A stretch of DNA of 64,000 nucleotides from Dastarcus helophoroides (Eukaryota; Arthropoda; Insecta; Coleoptera; Bothrideridae). Position numbers and translations under genes: made by a program. Location of the stretch: the NCBI GenBank assembly GCA_028583605.1, contig CM053329.1, positions 20,070,173-20,134,172 of the forward strand, written 5' to 3'. Below, piece after piece: positions 3,138 to 64,000 of the stretch (position 1 is the stretch's first letter; each line of letters begins with the position of its first letter). Under the pieces are notes generated by a model. That model worked only from the letters and a program-made list of their open reading frames with translations. It did no database searches and was not told the origin of the DNA.

Positions 3138-4011
3138 ATCTAAATTTCCATGAAAAGACAAATTTCAGAACAACATCGAAATTTTTGGTGAAACTTTTAT
3201 TCTTTTTAATAAAATTTTGATTTGATTTAAAATTTTAACAAAACGACGAAATTTGAGAAACAAATCGAAATTTCGAGACAAAAATAAGACAAATTCCAAA
3301 AACTGGAAATTTTAAATAAAAAACGTTGACCTATTTGATGACAAAGTTAAAGTTTCCAGAATAAAAAGGTGGAATTGTGAGAAAAATGACAAACTTGGAA
3401 TTTGGTGGAACGGACTAGTCCTTGGTTATCTTCAAAAATTAAAATTCAGAACTTGTCCCCTGGTACCAAGAAAGATTAAAAAATTGAAACACAGAACTTG
3501 CCCCCTGAAACCAACAAAAATTAAAAAACACAACAAAGGTTGCTCTAACGCGTTTCGACAGCCAAGCTGTCATCTTCAGAGAGAAAAAAAATCAAAAAAA
3601 AAGATTAAAAAACACAAAAAGGTTGCTCTAAAGCGTTTCGACAGTCAAATCAGCCAGTTTCTCTCCGAAGATGACAGCTTGGTTTCAGGGGACAAGTTCT
3701 GTATTTCAATTTTTGAAGATAACCAAGGACAAGTCCGTTCCACCAAATTCCAAGTTTGTCATTTTTCTCACAATTAGACCTTTTTATTCTGGAAACTTTA
3801 ACTTTGTCATCAAATAGGTCAACGTTTTTTTATTTAAAAATTCTAGTTTTTGGAATTTGTCTTATTTTTGTCTCGAAATTTCGATTTTTTTCTCAAATTA
3901 AGTCATTTTGTCAAAATTTTAAATTAGGTCAAAATTTTGTTAAAAAGAATAAAAGTTTCACCGAAAATTTCGATGTCGTTGTGAAATTCGACTTTTTATG
4001 GAAATTTAGAT
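3138..4011. repeat. Large imperfect palindrome (arms about 430 bp)
   Basis: The left arm from ATCTAAATTTCCATG (3138) is matched in reverse complement up to GAAATTTAGAT (4001-4011), with the centre near 3575. The arms stay alignable through the family A foldback in the middle and through its flanks (for example CAAATTCCAAAAACTGG against the right-arm TTTTTGGAATTTG). The palindrome is therefore larger than the foldback element itself, so a flank was copied along in inverted orientation. Confidence 0.85.
3403..3753. mobile_element. Family A foldback repeat (inverted dimer), copy A1
   Basis: Left arm TGGTGGAACGGACTAGTCC through the family A body. The centre has a GACAGCCAAGCTGTC hairpin, then an inverted right arm ending in AAGTCCGTTCCACCA. 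Family A recurs more than 20 times in this window. The right-arm sense strand carries, in order, CTGAAGATGACAGC, CGAAACGCGTTAGAGC, a pyrimidine-rich tract with TTTCAG, and a 3' end in CCACCAAAA. No protein is encoded; the recurrent short open frames here are by-products of the arms. Confidence 0.85.
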
Positions 4012-4125
4012 TTTTTTTTTCAATAACTAAGTTTGACCTTATCCTCACAATTCGACTTCTTTATTAGAACTTTGATTTTTATGAAAAATATTTGACGTCT
4101 TATCCAAAATTTTGAATTTTTTAGA
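3880..4125. repeat. Dispersed repeat E, copy 1 (partner at 14813-15065)
   Basis: About 245 bp with landmarks AAGTTTCACC, GATGTCGTT, CAATAACTAAGTTT and TTTGACGTCTTAT, homologous in the same order and orientation to 14813-15065. Here it forms the outer right flank of the palindrome; at 14.8 kb it lies between two pieces of a family A element. Confidence 0.75.
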
Positions 4126-4224
4126 ATTTGTTTTTTTTTTCTGCCTCGAAATTTTGATTTTTTCCCCTGAAAATCGTTATTTTATTAAAATATTGACTTT
4201 TTGGTTTTCAAATACAGTCAACAA

Positions 4225-6025
4225 CAGGGGGGTTATAGGGGGGCATGGTCGAATGGGGTATCATATGAAAGCGCTTCGTTTGTATATTCTAATACAATTT
4301 ATGCTTAAATTTTAACTCAAATATTTTTTGAGTTATAATAAGAAATATGCTATAAGTTACCCTTACGTCATTCTATCTCCAAAGTATATAAGTATAAAAA
4401 TCGGAAAATATTTATACTAATAAAAATTAATTAAACTTCACGTAAAAATTAACGAATTTTGTCAAAAATTAATGGGGGGTTATAGGGGGGCATGGTCGAA
4501 TGGGTTATCATATGAAAGCGCTTCGTTTGTATATTCTAATACAATTTATGCTTAAATTTTAACTCAAATATTTTTTAAGTTATAATAAGAAATATGCGAT
4601 AAGTTACCCTTACGTCACTCTATCTCCACAGTATATCAGTATAAAAATCGGAAAATATTTATACTAATAAAAATCACTTAAACTTCTAGTAAAAATTAAC
4701 GAATTTAGACAAAAATTAATGGGGGGTTGTAGGGGGGCATGGTCGAATGGGTTATCATATGAAAGCGCTTCGTTTGTATATTCTAATACAATTTATGCTT
4801 AAATTTTAACTCAAATATTTTTTAAGTTATAATAAGAAATATGCGATAAGTTACCCTTACGTCACTCTATCTCCACAGTATATCAGTATAAAAATCGGAA
4901 AATATTTATACTAATAAAAATCACTTAAACTTCTAGTAAAAATTAACGAATTTAGACAAAAATTAATGGGGGGTTGTAGGGGGGCATAGTCGAATGGGTT
5001 ATCATATGAAAGCGCTTCGTTTGTATATTCTAATACAATTTATGCTTAAATTTTAACTCAAATATTTTTTAAGTTATAATAAGAAATATGTTATAAGTTA
5101 CCCTTACGTCATTCTATCTCCAAAGTATATAAGTATAAAAATCGGAAAATATTTATACTAATAGAAAATTAATTAAACTTCACGTAAAAATTAACGAATT
5201 TAGACAAAAATTAATGGGGTGTTATAGGGGGGCATGGTCGAATGGGTTATCATATGAAAGCGCTTCGTTTGTATATTCTAATACAATTTATGCTTAAATT
5301 TTAACTCAAATATTTCTTAAGTTATAATAAGAAATATGCGATAAGTTACCCTTACGTCACTCTATCTCCACAGTATATCAGTATAAAAATCGGAAAATAT
5401 TTATACTAATAAAAATCACTTAAACTTCTAGTAAAAATTAACGAATTTAGACAAAAATTAATGGGGGGTTGTAGGGGGGCATGGTCGAATGGGTTATCAT
5501 ATGAAAGCGCTTCGTTTGTATATTCTAATACAATTTATGCTTAAATTTTAACTCAAATATTTTTTAAGTTATAATAAGAAATATGCTATAAGTTACCCTT
5601 ACGTCTTTCTATCTCCAAAGTATATAAATATAAAAATCGGAAAATATTTATACTAATAAAAATTAATTAAACTTCACGTAAAAATTAACGAATTTTGTCA
5701 AAAATTAATGGGGGGTTGTAGGGGGGCATGGTCGAATGGGTTATCATATGAAAGCGCTTCGTTTGTATATTCTAATACAATTTATGCTTAAATTTTAACT
5801 CAAATATTTTTTAAGTTATAATAAGAAATATGCGATAAGTTACCCTTACGTCACTCTATCTCCACAGTATATCAGTATAAAAATCGGAAAATATTTATAC
5901 TAATAAAAATCAGTTGAACTTCAAGTAAAAATTAACGAATTTAGACAAAAATTAATGGGGGGTTGTAGGGGGGCATGGTCGAATGGGGTATCATATGAAA
6001 GCGCTTCGTTAGTACATTCTAATAC
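4225..6025. repeat. 247-bp satellite array, about 7.3 units
   Basis: CATGGTCGAATGGG (or CATAGTCG) recurs at 4244, 4491, 4738, 4985, 5233, 5480, 5727 and 5974, spacing 247-248 bp. Each unit opens with a G-rich box (GGGGGGTTATAGGGGGGC or GTTGTAGG variant) followed by AT-rich sequence. Two monomer classes can be told apart: class 1 (CATTCTATCTCCAAAG, AATTAATTAAACTTCACG) and class 2 (CACTCTATCTCCACAG, AATCACTTAAACTTCTAG), in the order 1-2-2-1-2-1-2 plus a partial unit. The array stops abruptly at a family A fragment. Confidence 0.93.
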
Positions 6026-12774: not shown

Positions 12775-12990
12775 GAAGAATGCAACCTAGACTACAAATT
12801 CATGCAGCCCTCCAGGCAGCGTGTATAGTGAATCATAGGTAGCTGAACTACCAACAGTTGAAACACTGCCACCTAGCGAAGCGGTTGCTCTCTAGGAGAG
12901 TTCCCAGAAGACAAGGATTTCATAATGCACAGACCAATAGGTTTGAATCTAATAAATGTTCAAACCTATTGGTCTGTGCATTATAGGACT
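12775..12990. repeat. Family C repeat, copy 1, with 24-bp hairpin end
   Basis: Shares GAATCATAGGTAGCTGAACT, CCAACAGTTGAAACACTGCC and CTCTCTAGGA with 43038-43281 and 47921-48123. It ends in a perfect inverted repeat: 12923-12946 (starting AATGCACAGACCAATAGG) pairs with 12959-12982 around a 12-base loop. No protein domain recognised. It may be the tail of a larger non-autonomous element. Confidence 0.8.
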
Positions 12991-25105: not shown

Positions 25106-25318
25106 AAAGGCTTCTTGAAACGTGTTTGAATTTTTCACCAAATATCGACGACTGTTGTATAAGTTTGACATTTTGTTAATGATTTCAGTCTCCAAATTTT
25201 AATTTTTACCTCAAAAGTTTTTCTCGAATTATGAAATATAAATTTTAAGTTTTCATTCTTATTCAAAACTTTGAATTCTTCATGGTAGAACCTTATTGAC
25301 CGGAAATATTATGTTTTT

Positions 25319-25745
25319 TTCAATTTATTTAACATTTCTTCGGCCCAGTTTGGAAATATTTCAATTTTTTTATGGTTTGTTGAAAATTTTCTAAACAGTT
25401 TTTGAAATGCAACTACGTGATATTTAAATTTATTGAAAACGTCACTTCATGACAGTTCACAATTAAGAGGTTATTTTATTTTACATGGAATAGAAAAAAT
25501 GAAAAATAGGAGACCAAAAATTAGATATGCAAAAAATAAAAAATTTTTTTTTTTTGGTAAATAAAGAAAATATAAAAAAATACATAATAAATTGTGAACT
25601 GTCATGAAGTGACGTTTTCAATAAATTTAAATATCATGCAGCTGCATTTCAAAAACTGTTTAGAAAATTGTCAACAAACCATAAAAAGATTTAAATATTT
25701 CCAAACTGGGCCGAAGAAATGTTAAATAAATTGAAAAAAACAAAA
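25319..25745. mobile_element. Family D inverted dimer, copy D2
   Basis: The antisense arm (complement of AACTGGGCCGAAGAAATGTT near 25330) runs to about 25588, where a sense arm starts (AATTGTGAACTGTCATGAAG) and ends TTAAATAAATTGAAAAAAA near 25740. It is homologous to 48171-48460. The antisense part extends through the A/T-rich middle of family D but stops at AAATACAT, just short of where D1 has its hammerhead ribozyme. The ribozyme is therefore missing at the hinge. Confidence 0.8.
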
Positions 25746-26789
25746 CTTTGAAATCGAATTTCGTGATTTAATTCATTCAGAGAAAGAAATATCACCTAGT
25801 TTAAACGAAAAATCCAAAATTTAGAAAAAAAAACTTAAAATTTGTCCAGAACACTTTTGAAATTTTCAACAAAATTTAGAAAAGAGATTTCGACTTTTTT
25901 AAAAATATTCTTTGTTTGTATCAATATCCGGGATAAAATTTTAAAATATGTATTTCTTTATGAAAAGAAATCTGAATGTCGAGAGAAGTATGTCAATATT
26001 TTTAGAAAAAGTCCAAAGTTTCATTAAAAATGAATAGAAATAGAAATATAAAATTTCGATTTTCGAAAGTTCAACTTTCTTAAAATTTTTGAACGTTCCA
26101 CTCGGTCGCAGGGTTTAATTATTGTGAAATTTGTAAACTCTAAAATCTGAATTATTTTAATGAATCATCAATCGAATGTTCGTATTAAAATTCAAATTTT
26201 GTTTTTATAATTTGAGAGAAAAGTAGACCTAAATTGGAAAGTTTAAAAATAAAAGATTCTAAAAATGACTGAGTATTGGTTTTAAGAACAAGAGTAGACA
26301 GTATGTTTGAATTTTGGAATTGAATTTTCGAAGAAACCATAATGAACAAAAGAATGTCCCCGATTTTTTAAAAAAATAATTGACGATTCGAAATTAAATA
26401 AATAAAATTAATAAATAAATTAAAATTTCGAAAAAAACATCGAGTCTTTCAGTTTATATTAGTAGTATAAAGAAGGAAATCGAATTTTGTGGATTAAGAA
26501 CGTTTCGAAAAGAAATTAAAATCCTTACAAAACTCTAAGAGTTTTGAAACTCGAAATTTTGGACCAACAAGTAAAAGCTAATAGTTTGAATGTTAGGAAA
26601 AAATCGAAGTTTTGAGTAACATTTTGGAAAAAATAAACTTAAGTTGAAGGCATAATAAAGTTATCTTTTGCTAGTGGGATTGAACATATAAAAAACGCCA
26701 AATTAAAAATAAATGAAAATTTCGAGAGGGTATTTTAAATTTATAATTTTGAAATGCGATTTCTTGGGTTCAACACAAGAGTTTGATTT
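25746..26789. other. A-rich filler
   Basis: AT-rich low-complexity and mixed sequence. The frame at 25842-26027 is not credible. No gene seen. Confidence 0.45.
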
Positions 26790-29660
26790 TTTTTTGTGGC
26801 ACGGACTGGTCCTTGGTTATCTGCAAAAATTAAATTCAAATCTTGTTCCCTGAAACCAAAAAAGTTAAAAACACAACAGAGGTTTCTTTAACGCGTTTCG
26901 AAAGCCAAGCTATCATCTTCAGAGAGATACTGAAGATGATAGCCTTGCTGTCGAAACGCGTTAAAGCAACCTTTGTTGTATTTTTTAATCTTTCTTGGTT
27001 TCAGAGGACAAGATTTGTATTTCAAGGTTGATGTTGTCCTGGGGCAGCGGCCGGCGGACTCCGCCAGTATTCCCCCGGGCCGATCCGTTACTGGATTCGA
27101 TAGTTCTCGGTTTTATCTGAATTGAAATACTCGGGGAAATTATAAAACAATAACTTTAAGGGATCTGAGAGAACTAGAAACTTTATAGATCAAAATTAGT
27201 TTGATAAATTTTGGTGAATGCGCCGGACTTACCCGCACGAACGCTTTTTAAAAGATTATTTCAGTTTCATTCAATCAACTGTTTATGGAATACAAACATT
27301 ATTAAGCAAACATATCATTCAAAACCAGATTTTTGGAACATCGTACCTGCTGAGATTTTTTTTTTGTGGAATGAACTGATTCTTGGTTATCTGCAAAAAT
27401 TGGAATACAAATCTTGTCCCCTGAAACCAAAAAAGTTAAAAACACAACAGAGGTTGCTTTAACGCGTTTCGAGAGCCAAGCTATCATCTTCAGAGAGATA
27501 CTGAAGATGATAGCCTTGCTGTCGAAACGCGTTAAAGCAACCTTTGTTGTATTTTTTAATTTTTCTTGGTTTCAGAGGACAAGATTTGTATTTCAAGGTT
27601 GATGTTGTCCTGGGGCAGCGGCCGGCGGACTCCGCCAGTATTCCCCCGGGCCGATCCGTTACTGGATTCGATAGTTCTCGGTTTTATCTGAATTGAAATA
27701 CTCGGGGAAATTATAAAACAATAACTTTAAGGGATCTGAGAGAACTAGAAACTTTATAGATCAAAATTAGTTTGATAAAATTTGGTGGATGCGCCGGACT
27801 TGCCCGCACGAACGCTTTTTAAAAGATTGTTTCAGTTTCGTTCAATCAATTTTTTATTGAATACAAGCATTATTGAGCAAACATATCATTCAAAACTAGA
27901 TTTTTGGAACATCGTACTTGCTGAGATTTTTTTTTTTGGTGGAACGAACTGGTCCTTGCTTATCTGCAAAAACTGAAATACAAATCTTGACCCCTAAAAC
28001 CAAAAAAGTTAGAAAACACAACAGAGGTTGCTTTAACGCGTTTCGGCAGCCAAGCTATCATCTTTAGAGACATACTGAAGATAATAGCTTGGCTGTCGAA
28101 ACGCGTTAGAGCAACCTTTGTTGTATTTTTTAATCTTTCTTGGTTTCAGAGGACAAGATTTGTATTTCAAGGTTGATGTTGTCCTGGGACAGCGACCGAC
28201 GGACTGCGCCAGTATTCCCCCAGACCGGTCCGTTCCTGGATTCGATAGGTTTCGGTTTTATCTGAATTGAAAGACTCGGGGAATTTATAAAACAATAAAT
28301 TTAAGGGATCTGAGAGAACTAGAAACGTTATGGATCAAAATTAGTTTGATAAAATTTGGTGGATGCGCCGGACTTTCCCGCACGAACGCTTTTTGAAAGA
28401 TTGTTTCAGTTTCATTCAATCAATTTTTTATAGAATGCAAACATTATTAACCAAACATATCATTCAAAACTAGATTTTTGAAACATCGTACTTGCTGAGA
28501 TTTATCTTTTTTGTGGAACGAACTGGTTCTTGGTTATCTGCAAAAATTGAAATACAAATCTTGTCCCCTGAAACCAAAAAAGTTATAAAACACAACAGAG
28601 GTTGCTCTAACGCACTTCGATAGCCAAGCTATCATCTTCTCATCTTCAGAGACATACTGAAGATGATAACTTGGCTGTCGAAACGCGTTAGAGCAACCTT
28701 TGTTGTATTTTTAATCTCGCTTGGTTTCAGAGGACAAGATTTGTATTTCAAGGTTGATGTTGTCCTGGGACAGCGGCCGGCGGACTCCGCCAGTATTCCC
28801 ACGGGCCGGTCCGTTACTGGATTCGATAGTTTTCTGTTTTATCTGAATTGAAAGACTTCGGGAAATTATAAAACAATAACTTTAAGGGATCTGAGAGAAC
28901 TAGAAACTTTATGGATCAAAATTAGTTTGATAAATTTTGGTGGATGCGCCAGAGTTGCCCATACGCTTTTTAAAAGAATGTTTCAGTTTCATTCAATCAA
29001 TTTTTTATAAAATACAAACATTATTAAGCAAACATATCATTCAAAACTAGATTTTTGGAACATCGTACTTGCTGAGATTAATTTTTTTTGTGGAACGAAT
29101 TGGTTCTTGGTTATCTGTAAAAATTGAAATACAAATCTTGTCCCCTGAAACCAAAAAAGTTAAAAACACAACAGAGGTTGCTTTAACGCGTTTCGAGAGC
29201 CAAGCTATCATCTTCAGGGACATACTGAAGATGATAACTTAGCTGTCGAAACGTGTTAGAGCGACCTTTGTTGTATTTTTTAATCTTTCTTGGTTGCAGA
29301 GGACAAGATTTGTATTTCAAGGTTGATGTTGTCCTGGGACAGCGGCCGGCGGACTCCGCCAGTATTCCCCTGGGCCGGTCCGTTACTGGATTCGATAGTT
29401 TTCTGTTTTATCTGAATTGAAAGACTCCGGGAAATTATAAAACAATAACTTTAAGAGATCTGAGAGAACTAGAAACGTTATGGGTCAAAATTAGTTTGAT
29501 AAATTTTGGTGGATGCGCCGGACTTGCCCTCACGAACGCTTTTTAAAAGATTGTTTCAGTTTCATTCAATCAACTTTTTATAGAATACAAACATTATTAA
29601 GCAAACATATCATTCAAAAGTAGATTTTTAAAACATCGTACTTGCTCAGATTTATTTTTT
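26790..29660. repeat. Tandem satellite, 5 units of about 573 bp, each with a family A foldback
   Basis: GGTTGATGTTGTCCTGG occurs at 27026, 27597, 28171, 28752 and 29321 (spacing 571, 574, 581, 569). Each unit has a family A palindrome with a hammerhead-like core (CTGAAGATGATAGC, CTGTCGAAACGCGTTA), then a GC-rich block with GGCGGACTCCGCC. A GGTGGATGCGCCGGA box follows, with an AT-rich stretch ending CATCGTACTTGCTGAGAT. Copies are similar but not identical. A partial monomer sits at 34497-34722, so the unit also exists outside the array. Confidence 0.92.
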
Positions 29661-35190: not shown

Positions 35191-35365
35191 ATTTTGAAAT
35201 TGGCCTTTTTCTGTTTTGCATATTCCCTCATATTCCTCTTTTCATCTATTTTTCTTTCTTTGTTCCTGAAGAAGCCCCCTACGATGGTGGGCGAAACGTC
35301 GAACACTTTTAGTAGTTCTTTGACACGGTCCAATCCCGGAAGAAGTATATCCTGTACTGAAAGAA
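35166..35365 (+). mobile_element. Family B repeat, copy B2
   Basis: ATACTGAGTTACCGTGCTCT, a T-rich tract, the hammerhead-like core at 35261-35305, then AGTAGTTCTTTGACACGG and AGAAGTATATCCTGTACTG followed by A-rich DNA. The frame EEAPYDGGRNVEHF-stop overlaps the core. B1 and B3 are the other copies. Confidence 0.8.
35261..35305 (+). ncRNA. Hammerhead-like ribozyme motif (family B)
   Basis: Stem I TGTTC/GAACA. Core CTGAAGA at 35266-35272 plus one extra A. Stem II GCCC (35274-35277) with GGGC (35289-35292), a longer imperfect top and loop. GAAA at 35293-35296, minimal stem III ACGT, cleavage triplet GTC ending 35300. The extra base before stem II departs from the hammerhead consensus, so activity is doubtful. 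Confidence 0.5.
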
Positions 35366-43037: not shown

Positions 43038-43281
43038 GGAATGCAACCTAGACTACAAATTCATGCAGCCCCCCAGGCGTCTATAGTGAATCATAGGTAG
43101 CTGAACTACCAACAGTTGAAACGCTGCCAACTAGCGAAGCGGTTGCTCTCTAGGAAGGTTCCCAGAAGACAAGGTTTCTAATGCACAGGCCAATAGGTTT
43201 GAACATTTATTAGATTTCGAAGTATTTGGTTTCCAAACTTCGAATCTAATAAATGTTCAAACCTATTAGTTTGTGCATTAG
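43038..43281. repeat. Family C repeat, copy 2
   Basis: TGCAACCTAGACTACAAATT, GAATCATAGGTAGCTGAACT and the terminal hairpin (AGGTTTGAACATTTATTAGA paired with TCTAATAAATGTTCAAACCT). This hairpin arm is longer than in copy 1. Confidence 0.8.
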
Positions 43282-43773
43282 AATCTACTGGTATGGATGA
43301 AAAATGTCAATTAGTTACCTCTTTCACAAATAAATATGACACCATGAAAAATAATTTACTTTTCAACTAAGGCTCAGATTTTGTTGATCTTAATCGAAAC
43401 ATAACATTAGTATTTTGCTAGCAAGAAATTAATATCATTTCAGCGGCAAAATATTATCTTCAAGATGTTGACATGTTTTAGAAATTTTTTTCTGAAAATA
43501 AAAACAATCTTCTATAAAGTTAATACCAACCAGCTAAAATTAAAAGCAACCAAAACATTCTTTAAAAATATTAATAAAATTTTTTGATAACTGAAAGAAT
43601 CCTCAAAGACTTCCAAACAGTTTTCTAAACAAATTACAAGTTTATTCAAAAATCTTTAAAGATCTACAACAAAATTAAAACAATCTTCCAGAAACTGAAA
43701 CTAGCTTTTAAAAAACTAAGACAATTTTCTGAAATGTTCAGTAAAACCTTCTCTAAAACTGAAACAATCTTCT
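43282..43773. repeat. CTGAAACAATCTTCTAAG-type filler, first block
   Basis: Degenerate repetition of AAACTGAAACAATCTTCTAA phrases, the same phrase as 49.3-53.9 kb and different from the GTCGAAATTTTGAG phrase elsewhere. Confidence 0.6.
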
Positions 43774-47920: not shown

Positions 47921-48123
47921 GTATATAGCGAATCATAGGTAGCTGAACTACCAACAGTTGAAACACTGCCACCTAGCGAAGAGGTTGCTCTCTAGGAAAG
48001 TTCCCAGAAGACAAGGATTCTAATGCACAGGCCAATAGGTTTGAACATTTATTAGATTTCGAAGTATTTGGTTTCCAAACTTCGAATCTAATAAATGTTC
48101 AAACCTATTAGTTTGTGCATTAT
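47921..48123. repeat. Family C repeat, copy 3
   Basis: GAATCATAGGTAGCTGAACT through the hairpin AGGTTTGAACATTTATTAGA/TCTAATAAATGTTCAAACCT. It ends at TTTGTGCATTA, directly abutting the hammerhead ribozyme. Copies 1 and 2 have other sequence at this border. Confidence 0.8.
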
Positions 48124-48170
48124 GCACTGCTGACGAGCTCAAATGAGAGCGAAACATCGATGTCCAGTGC
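48124..48170 (+). ncRNA. Hammerhead ribozyme, consensus type I layout
   Basis: Stem I GCACTG (48124-48129) pairs perfectly with CAGTGC (48165-48170). CTGACGA (48130-48136) is the invariant CUGANGA core. Stem II GCTC (48137-48140)/GAGC (48147-48150) has loop AAATGA. GAAA follows at 48151-48154. Stem III is the palindrome ACATCGATGT (48154-48163). The cleavage triplet is GTC with C17 at 48164. Every invariant position of the family is present. The ribozyme lies at the 5' edge of family D, where self-cleavage would define the RNA 5' end. The very short loop of stem III is typical of dimer-active retroelement hammerheads. Activity is inferred. Confidence 0.88.
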
Positions 48171-48460
48171 TACAACCTTTTTATGTATTTTTTTATATTT
48201 TCCTAATTTATCAAAAAAACAAATTTTTTATTTTTTCCATATCTAATTTTTTGTCTTCTATTTTTCATTATTCCTATTCTATGTAAAATAAACTAACTTC
48301 TTAATTTCTGAACTCTCATGAAGTGACGTTTTTAATAAATTTAAATATCACGTGGTCGCATTTCAAAAACTGTTTAGAAAATTGTCAACAAACCATAAAA
48401 ATTTAAATATTTTCAAACTGGGCCGAAGAAATGTTAAATAAATTGAAAAAAAAAACATTC
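48171..48460 (+). mobile_element. Family D repeat body, copy D1
   Basis: Starts TACAACCTTTTTATG after the ribozyme, passes AT-rich DNA and TCATGAAGTGACG, and ends AACTGGGCCGAAGAAATG then an A-rich tail (TTGAAAAAAAAAAC). Copy D2 (25319-25745) is homologous. The order ribozyme, body, A-rich end suits a retroposed RNA. Confidence 0.75.
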
Positions 48461-48536
48461 TTAGGCATGTTAGGTGGCACGTGACTTTCTGCGCTCACGC
48501 AAATTCCGTTCTCGACGTTTGTCAGTCGTAAATACA

Positions 48537-49200
48537 ATGGGTGACCAAGAGGTTCATCCGCACGTTGCGCGGCGCATTATCATTAAATTTCTTGCCGTTA
48601 AAGATATAAAACCCGCCGAAATCTTTCGTAGACTGTGGGATACTTGCTTGAAGAACACTCAAATGTATGAATGGCACAAAAAAATTCCGGAAGGACGAAT
48701 TCAAGTTGAAAATGAAACCCATACTTGTCGTCCTTGGACCAGTGTGACTGTGGACAAGATTAACGCTGTTCAATGGCTTTTCTGTACGTTAATCATCTGT
48801 ATGAACGTCGTAGGATTAATGCTGCCTACCACTGCCAGCCATTAGATGAAGCAAAACGTGCATATTGGCGCATAGAGACGCGAATTTTCGGTCCAAAATG
48901 TGATTCTGCTTTACGACAATGCCCGCCCCCACTCAGCCAATCAGACACATCAAAAATTAGAGGAAATGCATTGGGCAACATTAGAACACCCTCCTTACAG
49001 TCCCGACTTGTCACAATGCGATTATCATATGTTTGGGCCACTAAAAGAAGCTCTAGGAGGTGAGCGATTCCATGATGATGCTTCTGTTAAGACATTTGTG
49101 CGCAACTGGCTGCTCACCCACCTCTTATTTTTATGATGATGGCATTAAAAAACCCCGAATCCATTGGGAAAAGTGAACAACAAAATCCGGAGATTATGTA
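48537..49200 (+). pseudogene. Mariner-family transposase, decayed (DD34D)
   Basis: The start at 48537 (MGDQEVHPHVARRIIIKFL) opens the N-terminal helix-turn-helix part, up to about TVDKINAV (48776). After an internal deletion, fragments in two other frames follow (DEAKRAYWR near 48850). Then, from 48900, DNARPHS, the HPPYSPDLS region and CDYHMFGPLKEALGG. The DNARPH aspartate (48915) and CDYHMF aspartate are separated by 34 residues, the mariner DD34D hallmark; the first catalytic aspartate is in the deleted part. Mariner transposases are about 340-350 residues; roughly 195 remain. Frameshifts and the deletion make it inactive. The tail (YDDGIK, about 49131) is again in another frame. No terminal inverted repeats found. 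Confidence 0.9.
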
Positions 49201-53317: not shown

Positions 53318-53625
53318 TAAGATTTTTTGTGGAACGGACTGGTCCTTGGTTATCTTCAAAAAAAAAAAAATAAAGTTGGTCTAAACATTTAGAAAGATTT
53401 GTGACCTTGACAATCTACCAAGAAGTAGTAGGAACATTTTCTGGCCTTGAATAGTTTCTCAAAACTTCTTTTCAACTTAGAAGTATGGTCAAAACACTTT
53501 AGAGGGTTTTGTAAAAATTGAAATACAAATCTTGTCCCCTGAAACCAAGAAAGATTAAAAAATACAACAGAAGTTGCTCTAACGCGTTACGATAGCCAAG
53601 CTATCATCTTCAGAGCGATACTGAA
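53318..53625. mobile_element. Family A fragments A17
   Basis: A left end (TGTGGAACGGACTGGTCC, 53328-53360) and, about 160 bp on, an antisense arm 53513-53625 (AAAATTGAAATACAAATCTT to ATCTTCAGAGCGATACTG) with the T-type stem II GATAGCCAAGCTATC. The right arm is missing. Confidence 0.8.
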
Positions 53626-61805: not shown

Positions 61806-62075
61806 CGAAAATTGAAATACAGAATTTGTCCTTTGAAACCAGGAAAGATTAAAAAACAACCATCGTTGTTCTAACGCGTTTCGACAGCCAATCTGTCATC
61901 TTCAGAGAGATACTCAGTATCTCTTTCAGATCAGTATCTCTCTGAAGATGACAGCTTGACTGTCGAAACGCGTTAGAGCAACGTTAGTTGTGTTTTTAAT
62001 CTTTCTTGGTTTCAGTGGACAAGTTCTGTATTTCAATTTTTGAAAATAACCAAGGACCAGTCCGTTCCACCAAAT
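61806..62075. mobile_element. Family A foldback, A23, best-preserved core
   Basis: AAAATTGAAATACAGAATTT to TCATCTTCAGAGAGATACTC, a short hinge, then the sense arm with CTGAAGATGACAGCTTGACT and GTCGAAACGCG, ending CAGTCCGTTCCACCAAAT. The hammerhead-like core is annotated at 61938-61978. Confidence 0.85.
61938..61978 (+). ncRNA. Hammerhead-like ribozyme motif (family A)
   Basis: Stem I CTCT (61938-61941)/AGAG (61975-61978). Core CTGAAGA (61942-61948) plus one extra T. Stem II GACAG (61950-61954)/CTGTC (61960-61964). GAAA at 61965-61968. Stem III palindrome ACGCGT (61968-61973) and triplet GTT with the putative cleaved base at 61974. Departs from consensus by the inserted T and a GTT triplet. 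Other copies show covariation in stem II. Confidence 0.5.
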
Positions 62076-62510
62076 TTAAAATTCGAGTCGAAATTTTAAA
62101 TAAGCATTTACTTGGAAGAATTTTTGTTCTGGTCTTTTTCAGATTTTTTATTCTTGAATGTATTTTCAAATTCAATTGCAAAGTTTCGACTCTTACTAAG
62201 AATTGAATTTCCCTTTTAAAATAAATTTTGAGTTTTAGTTAAATTCCAAATTTTTATTTTAAAATCACTTCAAATTTGTAAGAAAGGAAACTCGATTTTT
62301 TTTGTAAAGAACATGCTACAAAAATCATATGAAAAATTTCAAAAAAGTTAAAATTTTGAAAAAAGTTCAAAATACTGGGAAGTCGAAATTTCAAGTCGAC
62401 ATTTTCAGAAATGTCAAGATAAAAATTTTCCAAATTTTGGAAAAACCGTTTTCTAAAAATCAAGGATTTGAAAAATGGAGAATTTTAAAAAAATCAAAAT
62501 TTTTATAATA
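62076..62510. other. A/T-rich filler
   Basis: Low-complexity DNA between two family A copies; open frames here follow the filler. Confidence 0.5.
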
Positions 62511-62830
62511 AAAATTAAAATACAAATGTTGTCCCCTGAAACCAAGAAAGATTAAAAAACAAAGCAGAGGTTGCTCTAACGCGTCTCAATAGCCAAGCTA
62601 TCATCTTCAGGGAGATAGTATCTCTCTTGGCTATCTCTCGCTTGGGCTATCGAAACGCGCCCAACCGAGAGATAGCCAAGAGAGATACTATCGCTCTGAA
62701 GATGATAGCTTGGCTATTGAAACGCGTTAGAGCAACCTTTGTTGTGTTTTTTAATCTGTCTTGGTTTCAGGGGACAGGATGTGTATATCAATTTTTGAAT
62801 ATAACCAAGGACAAGTTCGTACCAGCAAAA
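62511..62830. mobile_element. Family A foldback, A24
   Basis: AAAATTAAAATACAAATGTT to ATCATCTTCAGGGAGATAG, a rearranged hinge with several GAGATAGCCAAGAGAGATAC-like inversions. Then CTGAAGATGATAGCTTGGCT and ATTGAAACGCGTTAGAGC (62696-62732), ending GACAAGTTCGTACCAGCAAA. Confidence 0.85.
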
Positions 62831-64000
62831 AAAAATTATAATAGTTGAAACGTGTTTTAAAATTGCCAAAACCATCAAAATATATTACAAAAAAGGAGAG
62901 CTAAATTTAAAAAAAAAACCAAAATTATCAGAAAAATCGGAATTATTTAAAATGGTAGAAATATCGAAAATTTAAATTTCTGAAATTGTCTATAGTCCAA
63001 ATTTTGAACTGGACATTTAGAAAAAACCATTTTAAAAAAATGGCGAAATATACAAAAATATAATCTGTTCGAAACCTTGGCAAGTAAAAAGGTTATAATT
63101 ATCAAAAAAATTTTGGAAAAATTAAGAAATTTTTTGAATAAAATGTAATTTGTTCGAAACTTTGGCAAGTAAAAAAGTTATAAACATTAAAAGAAATTTT
63201 AAAACATGAAGAAACCTTTTGAAAAACTTAAAAATGTGGAAATTTTTGAATATAACCAAGGACAAGTTCGTACCAGCAAAAAAAAAATATAATAGTTGAA
63301 ACGTGTTTTAAAATTGCCAAAACCATCAAAATATATTACAAAAAAGTAGAGCTAAATTTAAAAAAAAAACCAAAATTATCAGAAAAATCGGAATTATTTA
63401 AAATGGTAGAAATATTGAAAATTTAAATTTCTGAAATTGTCTATAGTCCAAATTTTGAACTGGATATTTAGAAAAAACCATTTTGAAAAAATGGCGAAAT
63501 ATACAAAAATATAATCTGTTCGAAACCTTGGCAAGTAAAAAGGTTATAATTATCAAAAAAATTTTGGAAAAATTAAGAAATTTTTTGAATAAAATGTAAT
63601 TTGTTCGAAACTTTGGCAAGTAAAAAAGTTATAAACATTAAAAGAAATTTTAAAAAATGAAGAAACCTTTTGAAAAACCTAAAAATGTGGAAATTTTTGA
63701 ATATAATCAAGGACAAGTTCGTACCAGCAAAAAAAAATTATAATAGTTGAAACGTGTTTTAAAATTGCCAAAACCATCAAAATATATTACAAAAAAGTAG
63801 AGCTAAATTTTAAAAAAAAACCAAAATTATCAGAAAAATCGGAATTATTTAAAATGGTAGAAATATTGAAAATTTAAATTTCTGAAATTGTCTATAGTCC
63901 AAATTTTGAACTGGATATTTAGAAAAAACCATTTTGAAAAAATGGCAAAATATACAAAAATATAATCTGTTCGAAACCTTGGCAAGTAAAAAGGTTATAA
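62801..64000. repeat. 451-bp tandem array, open at the window end
   Basis: ATAACCAAGGACAAGTTCGT starts at 62801 and 63252, with ATAATCAAGG at 63703: exactly 451 bp each. Units are nearly identical. Each begins with the last about 35 bp of family A, so the array grew from the DNA at the 3' edge of copy A24. At least 2.7 units are visible. Confidence 0.93.

Follow-up and report, generated by a model that had tools for sequence, protein, structure and literature searches.

A non-coding repeat family with a predicted hammerhead ribozyme and Penelope-type insertions in Dastarcus helophoroides

Results

Features of the locus

The window, which is the whole stretch of 64,000 nucleotides analysed here from contig CM053329.1 of the beetle Dastarcus helophoroides, contains a type I hammerhead motif inside a truncated copy of a repeat that we call family A, and a second insertion of the same family in which neither arm contains the ribozyme (Table 1). 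The copy with the motif starts 4 nt upstream of stem I, and the flank shared around it is 4 bp only. An earlier note on this DNA had put the hammerhead exactly at the edge of its repeat, which did not hold up: the motif is internal to a unit of ~717 nt, and other copies reach up to ~350 nt farther upstream. Similarly, the A run at 48446-48455, which had been taken for an A-rich tail, is not a poly(A) end: family A has two possible 3' ends, this one and another ~41 nt farther on, to which tailed copies extend.

The upstream neighbour of this copy has a 96.5% identical copy at 43079-43280 (202 bp), and is one of three ribozyme-less relicts of family C in the window (12821-12984, 43079-43285 and 47921-48122). 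Directly downstream lie two broken frames (48474-49063), which we presume to resemble mariner transposase; a 78-aa piece of them had no match in Pfam.

Table 1. Positions of the main features in the window
Feature	Position	Strand	Basis
Type I hammerhead ribozyme motif, predicted cleavage after 48164	48124..48170	+	pattern, Rfam, descriptor, covariation, B/C model, genome count
Stem I GCACTG/CAGTGC	48124-48129/48165-48170	+	direct reading
Core CTGACGA	48130-48136	+	direct reading
Stem II GCTC/GAGC, loop AAATGA	48137-48140/48147-48150	+	direct reading
Core GAAA	48151-48154	+	direct reading
Stem III ACATCGATGT	48154-48163	+	direct reading
C17	48164	+	direct reading
Family A copy, 5'-truncated; corresponds to L048 unit positions 343-677, with the proximal 3' end	48120..48452	+	alignment
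Palindromic relict of family C that lacks the ribozyme core; adjoins the family A copy	47921..48122	.	sequence comparison
Second insertion of family A with two head-to-head arms, the left (-) tailed and the right (+) untailed	25276..25740	.	by eye
Left copy of the 12-bp shared flank CAAAACTTTGAA (target-site duplication)	25264..25275	+	by eye
Right copy of the 12-bp shared flank CAAAACTTTGAA	25741..25752	+	by eye
Family D	3399-62829, e.g. 12513, 36730, 61422, 61942		22 members in repeat family D3

The hammerhead motif

Every part of the complete hammerhead consensus that had been claimed for 48124-48170 was found again as described, with the invariant core CUGANGA...GAAA...NUH in order. The 47-nt motif is single in the window at up to three mismatches (expected, 0). 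The loose core pattern is common there (32 matches versus 6.6 expected), and 23 of the 32 look like family D. A descriptor with all stems found seven window sites versus none in each of 40 first-order Markov controls; the seven are the family A motif, the family E motif at 35266 and five family D motifs.

With regard to the databases, the best Rfam match was HH9 (RF02275), which we take to be the amniote intronic hammerhead, with 40.1 bits and an E value of 7.7e-9 (501 nt searched). The first outcome that the earlier note named as refuting, a model score below threshold, has literally occurred: the score is below the gathering threshold of 52, which no match anywhere in the window reached. RF00163 and RF00008 were absent from the Rfam matches listed, from which the tool omitted one lower-scoring clan match. 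The family A motif shares with HH9 the GCTC/GAGC stem II and a similar internal loop beside stem I (UUA/UAC in the alignment), and the window copy ends just outside stem I. The minimum free energy (MFE) fold of the 47-mer differs from the hammerhead fold (-12.9 versus -10.4 kcal/mol, 2.5 apart), with stems I and II common to both; the z value against shuffles is -1.33.

Genome copies and covariation

The genome searched was the 539-Mb assembly of 50 contigs. CTGACGA-N14-GAAA has 8448 matches there versus 350 for the reversed pattern, and the 26-mer of family A has 1144 copies (reversed control, 0). The full 47-mer has 784 perfect copies (reversed pattern, 0), so that a further part of the refutation set out in the earlier note, no other copies keeping the core, is false. 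The core is also kept in family B (stem II GGCC/GGCC, stem I ACCATG/TATGGT) and family C (stem II GATC/GATC, stem I ACCAAA/TTTGGT). In an alignment of seven hammerheads (two of A, two of B and three of C, that is three families and so few independent events), 7 of 13 pairs were altered on both sides and 96.5% of the cells were paired. Such changes affected 5 of 6 pairs in stem I, 2 of 4 in stem II and 0 of 3 in stem III; an eighth row, a family D motif, was misaligned and left out. The pair count was reached in 4 of 500 shuffles, and sliding the partners by 1-3 columns left at most 36% paired. The helices thus covary as those of a type I hammerhead. Moreover, a covariance model made from five B and C rows only found the window site with an E value of 1.1e-5, the next match having 0.83. 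No family B or C hammerhead was detected in the window by the descriptor or by the B/C covariance model. We regard 48124-48170 as confirmed, at the level of sequence, to be a genuine hammerhead motif with predicted self-cleavage.

Family B hammerheads are located in L020 at 3955 and 4421 (a 466-bp tandem), in L021 at 4093 and in L011 at 951/1196. This family carries a perfect hairpin, CTTGTATATATTCGTATATACAAG, and L011 holds, by eye, a head-to-head pair flanked by CCATATTTTTA. Family C hammerheads (L024 at 3223-4673, L012, L023 and L025) occur in tandem and in strongly palindromic units, with a spacing of 366-529 bp (L012, L023-L025). The centre of the window palindrome is near the family C cut; a cleavage signature in the family C palindromes was considered and dropped, because GTC or other remnants persist in related copies.

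The family A unit

The unit was defined on one locus, L048, where it is ~717 nt long. Its linker of ~115 nt is followed by an A+T-rich part; the hammerhead occupies 347-393, and ~290-330 nt come after the cut. The G+C content is 0.31. No coding frame is present, the longest stop-to-stop stretch being 70 aa when the unit end was also read across; family A is in this respect comparable to the animal retrozymes, which likewise combine a non-coding unit and a type I hammerhead. Three loci (L035, L043 and L048) run from the tail via the linker into the next unit, and two tandem neighbours at 701 and 712 bp agree with the unit length. ARAGORN found no tRNA-like linker in L048. When the best 40 of 1077 candidates for a 182-nt linker query were scored, 40 of 42 match rows were full length with 99-100% identity (eight at 100%, source locus included) and the other two were short pieces. 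Because the linker copies are so nearly identical, family A appears to have moved recently.

Thirty family A loci were fetched by the exact 26-mer, which selects for copies with an undamaged core. Since L048 and L049 belong to one insertion as its two arms, and L051 and L052 to another, the loci represent 28 insertions, or 29 with the window copy. The copy statistics were taken from list heads, mostly on contig C1, and do not represent a random sample. At these loci, the unselected ribozyme positions differ in 10 of 907 cases versus 490 of 10,327 in five flank stretches, with 31 of 1,509 in a sixth stretch. In seven ribozyme-spanning copies chosen by a 3' 36-mer, the ribozyme had 11 differences in 329 positions versus 26 in 562 and 32 in 888 for the flanks. 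We do not claim selection on the ribozyme, because the effect was absent in these seven copies, picked irrespective of it. Run-off at the cleavage site was rejected as well: none of 42 copies chosen by the 36-mer starts at the cut (387/388), the nearest starts being 371, 376 and 413. These 42 copies comprise 22 sequences from 20 loci around the 36-mer and 20 upstream pieces of 211 nt, 15 of which gave no meaningful alignment (scores of 30 or less) and were read as truncation below the piece.

Insertion structure of family A

Of 31 rows, 21 have their 3' end at 677-687, one at 699 and nine at 710-720; two insertions are represented there by both their arms, and the reference sequence is counted as well. 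Neighbours within 1.5 kb are oriented head to head in 10 of 10 cases among the 100 places listed for the 26-mer and in 18 of 21 among the 100 listed for the 36-mer, with a chance expectation of 0.3-0.4 for both. The remaining three of the 21 are the two tandem pairs mentioned above and one tail-to-tail pair at 880 bp. Head-to-head inverted repeats with partial tandems are characteristic of Penelope elements.

Of the 18 head-to-head insertions at loci chosen by exact 26-mer, nine have a tail on the left only and eight on the right only, so that 17 are tailed at exactly one end; the remaining one, L031, is tailed at both. This pattern corresponds to the optional 30-40-bp tail on one inverted repeat of Penelope elements; the probability of at least 17 such cases is 7e-5 if the ends are independent at one half. 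Among the 11 insertions without an inverted arm, three (L036, L039 and L040) have an 8-nt remnant of the inverted tail on the left, and eight, the window copy included, have neither this remnant nor a full tail. Target-site duplications, another Penelope trait, are suggested by a script run without a shuffled control, which found flanks of 9-15 bp shared in 19 of the 29 insertions; 16 of these 19 are head-to-head (of 18 such insertions). Three of the 19 are doubtful: the match is displaced by 10-11 nt from the left boundary in L032 and L045, the latter also being of low complexity, and that of L043 is part of a local repeat. The other ten of the 29 share just 4-7 bp.

The inner ends of the arms are more than 20 nt apart in 17 of 18 head-to-head insertions. 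The two arms, compared in five of the 18, are identical at 92.3 (L034), 97.2, 99.1, 99.7 and 100%, and the identity between insertions is 93.4% on average, with a range of 87.6-97.1 (40 comparisons).

Search for an autonomous partner

Family A lacks a frame with reverse transcriptase (RT) and GIY-YIG domains, and the long frames of L009-L058 (the first 30-odd listed, by eye) held no autonomous partner. At least 91 GIY-YIG matches exist in the genome (150 of 1070 candidates scored). Two of these places, L099 and L100, have no family A or D ends within 1 kb, and one 28-nt A+T-rich match to family A was found there. Their open frames are 417 and 416 aa long, and the sequences downstream diverge, by eye, after ~360 nt; they possibly represent a different GIY-YIG element.

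Discussion

Animal retrozymes are tandem non-coding repeats with units of 170-400 nt, and Penelope-like elements are put forward as a strong candidate for moving them on the grounds that both have type I hammerheads, both occur in tandem and both co-exist in the same animals (PMC7229834, in the parts drawn on here). Family A is similar in being non-coding, low in G+C and high in copy number, with a type I hammerhead, and its short palindromic stem III is as in the amphibian motifs described in the same parts of that paper. On the other hand, its unit is far longer than those lengths, its 3' end has two positions of the Penelope type, and its copies are mostly single or head to head and rarely tandem (two tandem neighbours among the 100 places listed for the 36-mer and none among the 100 for the 26-mer). 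The tandem arrangement at ~150-450 bp typical of retrozymes was not found in family A, whose unit is ~717 nt. The cave-cricket pDo500, mentioned in the part of PMC6155905 used here, is likewise a hammerhead in an insect repeat, but it belongs to satellite DNA and is likened to family A by description, not by sequence. The same part describes amniote intronic hammerheads, without the name HH9.

Typical Penelope structure includes pseudo-LTRs, with an inverted copy on the 5' side and, optionally, a 31-bp tail on one of them, and the examples given have duplications of 8-10 bp and mostly head-to-head inversions (PMC3846280, sections cited here). In the element from Anolis, the tail corresponds to two internal start sites that lie next to each other, both strands are cleaved and extended, the start site is alike on both strands in vitro, and the start codon is within the hammerhead (PMC11167929, sections cited here). 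Judged by the same sections, family A is like Anolis PAc and Adineta Pen in its optional tail of ~30-40 bp with two 3' positions, head-to-head copies, 5' truncation, short target duplications and a hammerhead upstream of the 3' end. It differs from them in having no coding frame, in the distance from the cut to the 3' end (~290-330 nt versus ~85-92 nt in PAc, computed from figures in the part of PMC11167929 used) and in the hammerhead itself: in family A, stem III is a palindrome of 10 nt and the internal loop is like that of HH9, whereas the Penelope hammerheads in those sections are minimal, without helix III or loop contacts. Family A therefore fits Penelope in insertion structure, not in coding content or hammerhead type. 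The phrase "non-autonomous Penelope" did not turn up in a limited search of the literature on Penelope-like elements and hammerheads, where it may still be in print.

Taken together, family A is probably a non-coding, non-autonomous retroelement with a predicted hammerhead, mobilised in trans by a Penelope-like RT-endonuclease. The suggestion in the earlier note of an element of the Penelope or retrozyme kind is supported by the 784 copies, the covariation and the Penelope-type insertions, but not by its argument from position, as the motif marks no repeat edge. The unit would be transcribed, and the hammerhead could cut after C17. The RNA, whether uncut, re-ligated or multi-unit, would be bound by the Penelope-like enzyme, which may make a staggered break of ~12 bp and start cDNA inside the RNA at two sites ~41 nt apart, one for each side of the break. 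We propose this step because two 3' ends, the one-tail pattern and shared flanks are seen. The two cDNAs, which stop at unequal 5' positions, would then be joined head to head; the resulting structure is observed. The window copy is best explained as one 5'-truncated product of such a Penelope-type insertion. Against this explanation stand the lack of a partner frame in the loci examined and of any start at the cut among 42 copies, the eight insertions without full tail, the two-tailed L031, the Rfam score below gathering and a ribozyme as changed as its flanks in seven copies. The ten insertions that share just 4-7 bp, the three doubtful flanks and a sample drawn largely from a single contig weigh on the same side.

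Other explanations have to be weighed against mobilisation by a Penelope-like enzyme. A chance motif in an A+T-rich repeat would agree with the missed gathering score and with an MFE fold other than the hammerhead, but is very improbable in view of the empty Markov controls (0 of 40), the covariation, the independent match of the B/C model and the number of perfect copies. We also consider it unlikely that family A is an animal retrozyme of the published type, its hammerhead-cut RNA being circularised by a host ligase and the circle reverse-transcribed by a LINE or another element, which would make the Penelope-like structure a product of chance or convergence. The non-coding unit with a G+C of 0.31 and a near-canonical type I hammerhead would suit such an origin, and so would the three loci that continue past their own end into the next unit, the tandem spacing of 701 and 712 bp, and the tandems of family B (466 bp) and family C (366-529 bp), which are as in retrozymes (PMC7229834, parts used here). 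These points are opposed by the unit length, by the absence, among the 100 places listed for the 26-mer, of intact ribozymes in tandem less than 1.5 kb apart, and by the one-tail head-to-head structure, which is described for Penelope and does not appear in those parts of the retrozyme account.

Family A could instead be the pseudo-LTR part of an autonomous Penelope-like element with coding copies outside our sample. The Penelope hallmarks tested are largely present, and copying that begins at the 3' end often stops short of where a distant frame would lie, yet we rate this possibility as low: in L035, L043 and L048 the tail is joined to the next unit by the ~115-nt linker, and no long frame intervenes, 40 of 42 linker rows cover all 182 nt (best 40 of 1077 candidates), and the tandem spacing is that of the short unit. 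Another question is whether the head-to-head structure arises from two starts across a break or from fold-back self-priming, which is offered as an explanation, on an antisense template, in the sections of PMC3846280 used here. As a single template would give, the arms are 97.2-100% identical in four of the five insertions compared, at or above the top value between insertions; the fifth, L034, stands beside them at 92.3%. Because simple fold-back should yield symmetric arms, the inner ends more than 20 nt apart in 17 of 18 insertions and the single tailed outer end in 17 of 18 make it an improbable source of these structures.

If family A is indeed moved by a Penelope-like enzyme, the question of who mobilises animal hammerhead retrozymes gains copy-level evidence that links them to Penelope-like elements. 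We tentatively raise the possibility that the enzyme works as a pair on one RNA, with the retrozyme-type hammerhead elements of this genome as its substrates. Each of the two start sites ~41 nt apart would serve one DNA end, so that a head-to-head insertion would receive exactly one tail and two nearly identical arms, and the enzyme would be supplied with unit-length RNA, released or trimmed by the hammerhead. Should the one-tail pattern hold over ~1000 copies, it would offer a test of the way in which Penelope-like enzymes begin at the two DNA ends.

The window also contains other repeats with hammerhead-like motifs. Family D is a Penelope-type repeat whose motif, CTGAAGATGACAGC..GCTGTCGAAACGCGTTAGAG, overlaps an ATG; the motif reads CTGAAG-ATG, and 4 of 17 such sites listed are open for 47 codons. 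Exactly one tail of ~30 bp was present in 13 of 13 head-to-head pairs picked by eye, a count that leaves out single pieces and those that are nested or on the same strand near 3400-3750 and 53325-53624, and takes the 573-bp array once; the copy at 61882-62116 is the query itself. Family D resembles the Anolis element in these one-tail pairs and in the overlap of motif and ATG (PMC11167929, sections cited here). Family E, at 35266-35310, has a minimal hammerhead-like motif, TGTTC-CTGAAGA-A-GCCC...GGGC-GAAACGTC-GAACA, with relatives in L009, L010, L017 and L028. The length of stem III is 10 nt in the family A palindrome, 6 nt in family D and 4 nt in family E. Finally, tandem arrays occupy 4227-6025, 26787-29447 and 62790-64000 with periods of 247, ~573 and 451 bp, and the ~573-bp array is built on a head-to-head insertion of family D.
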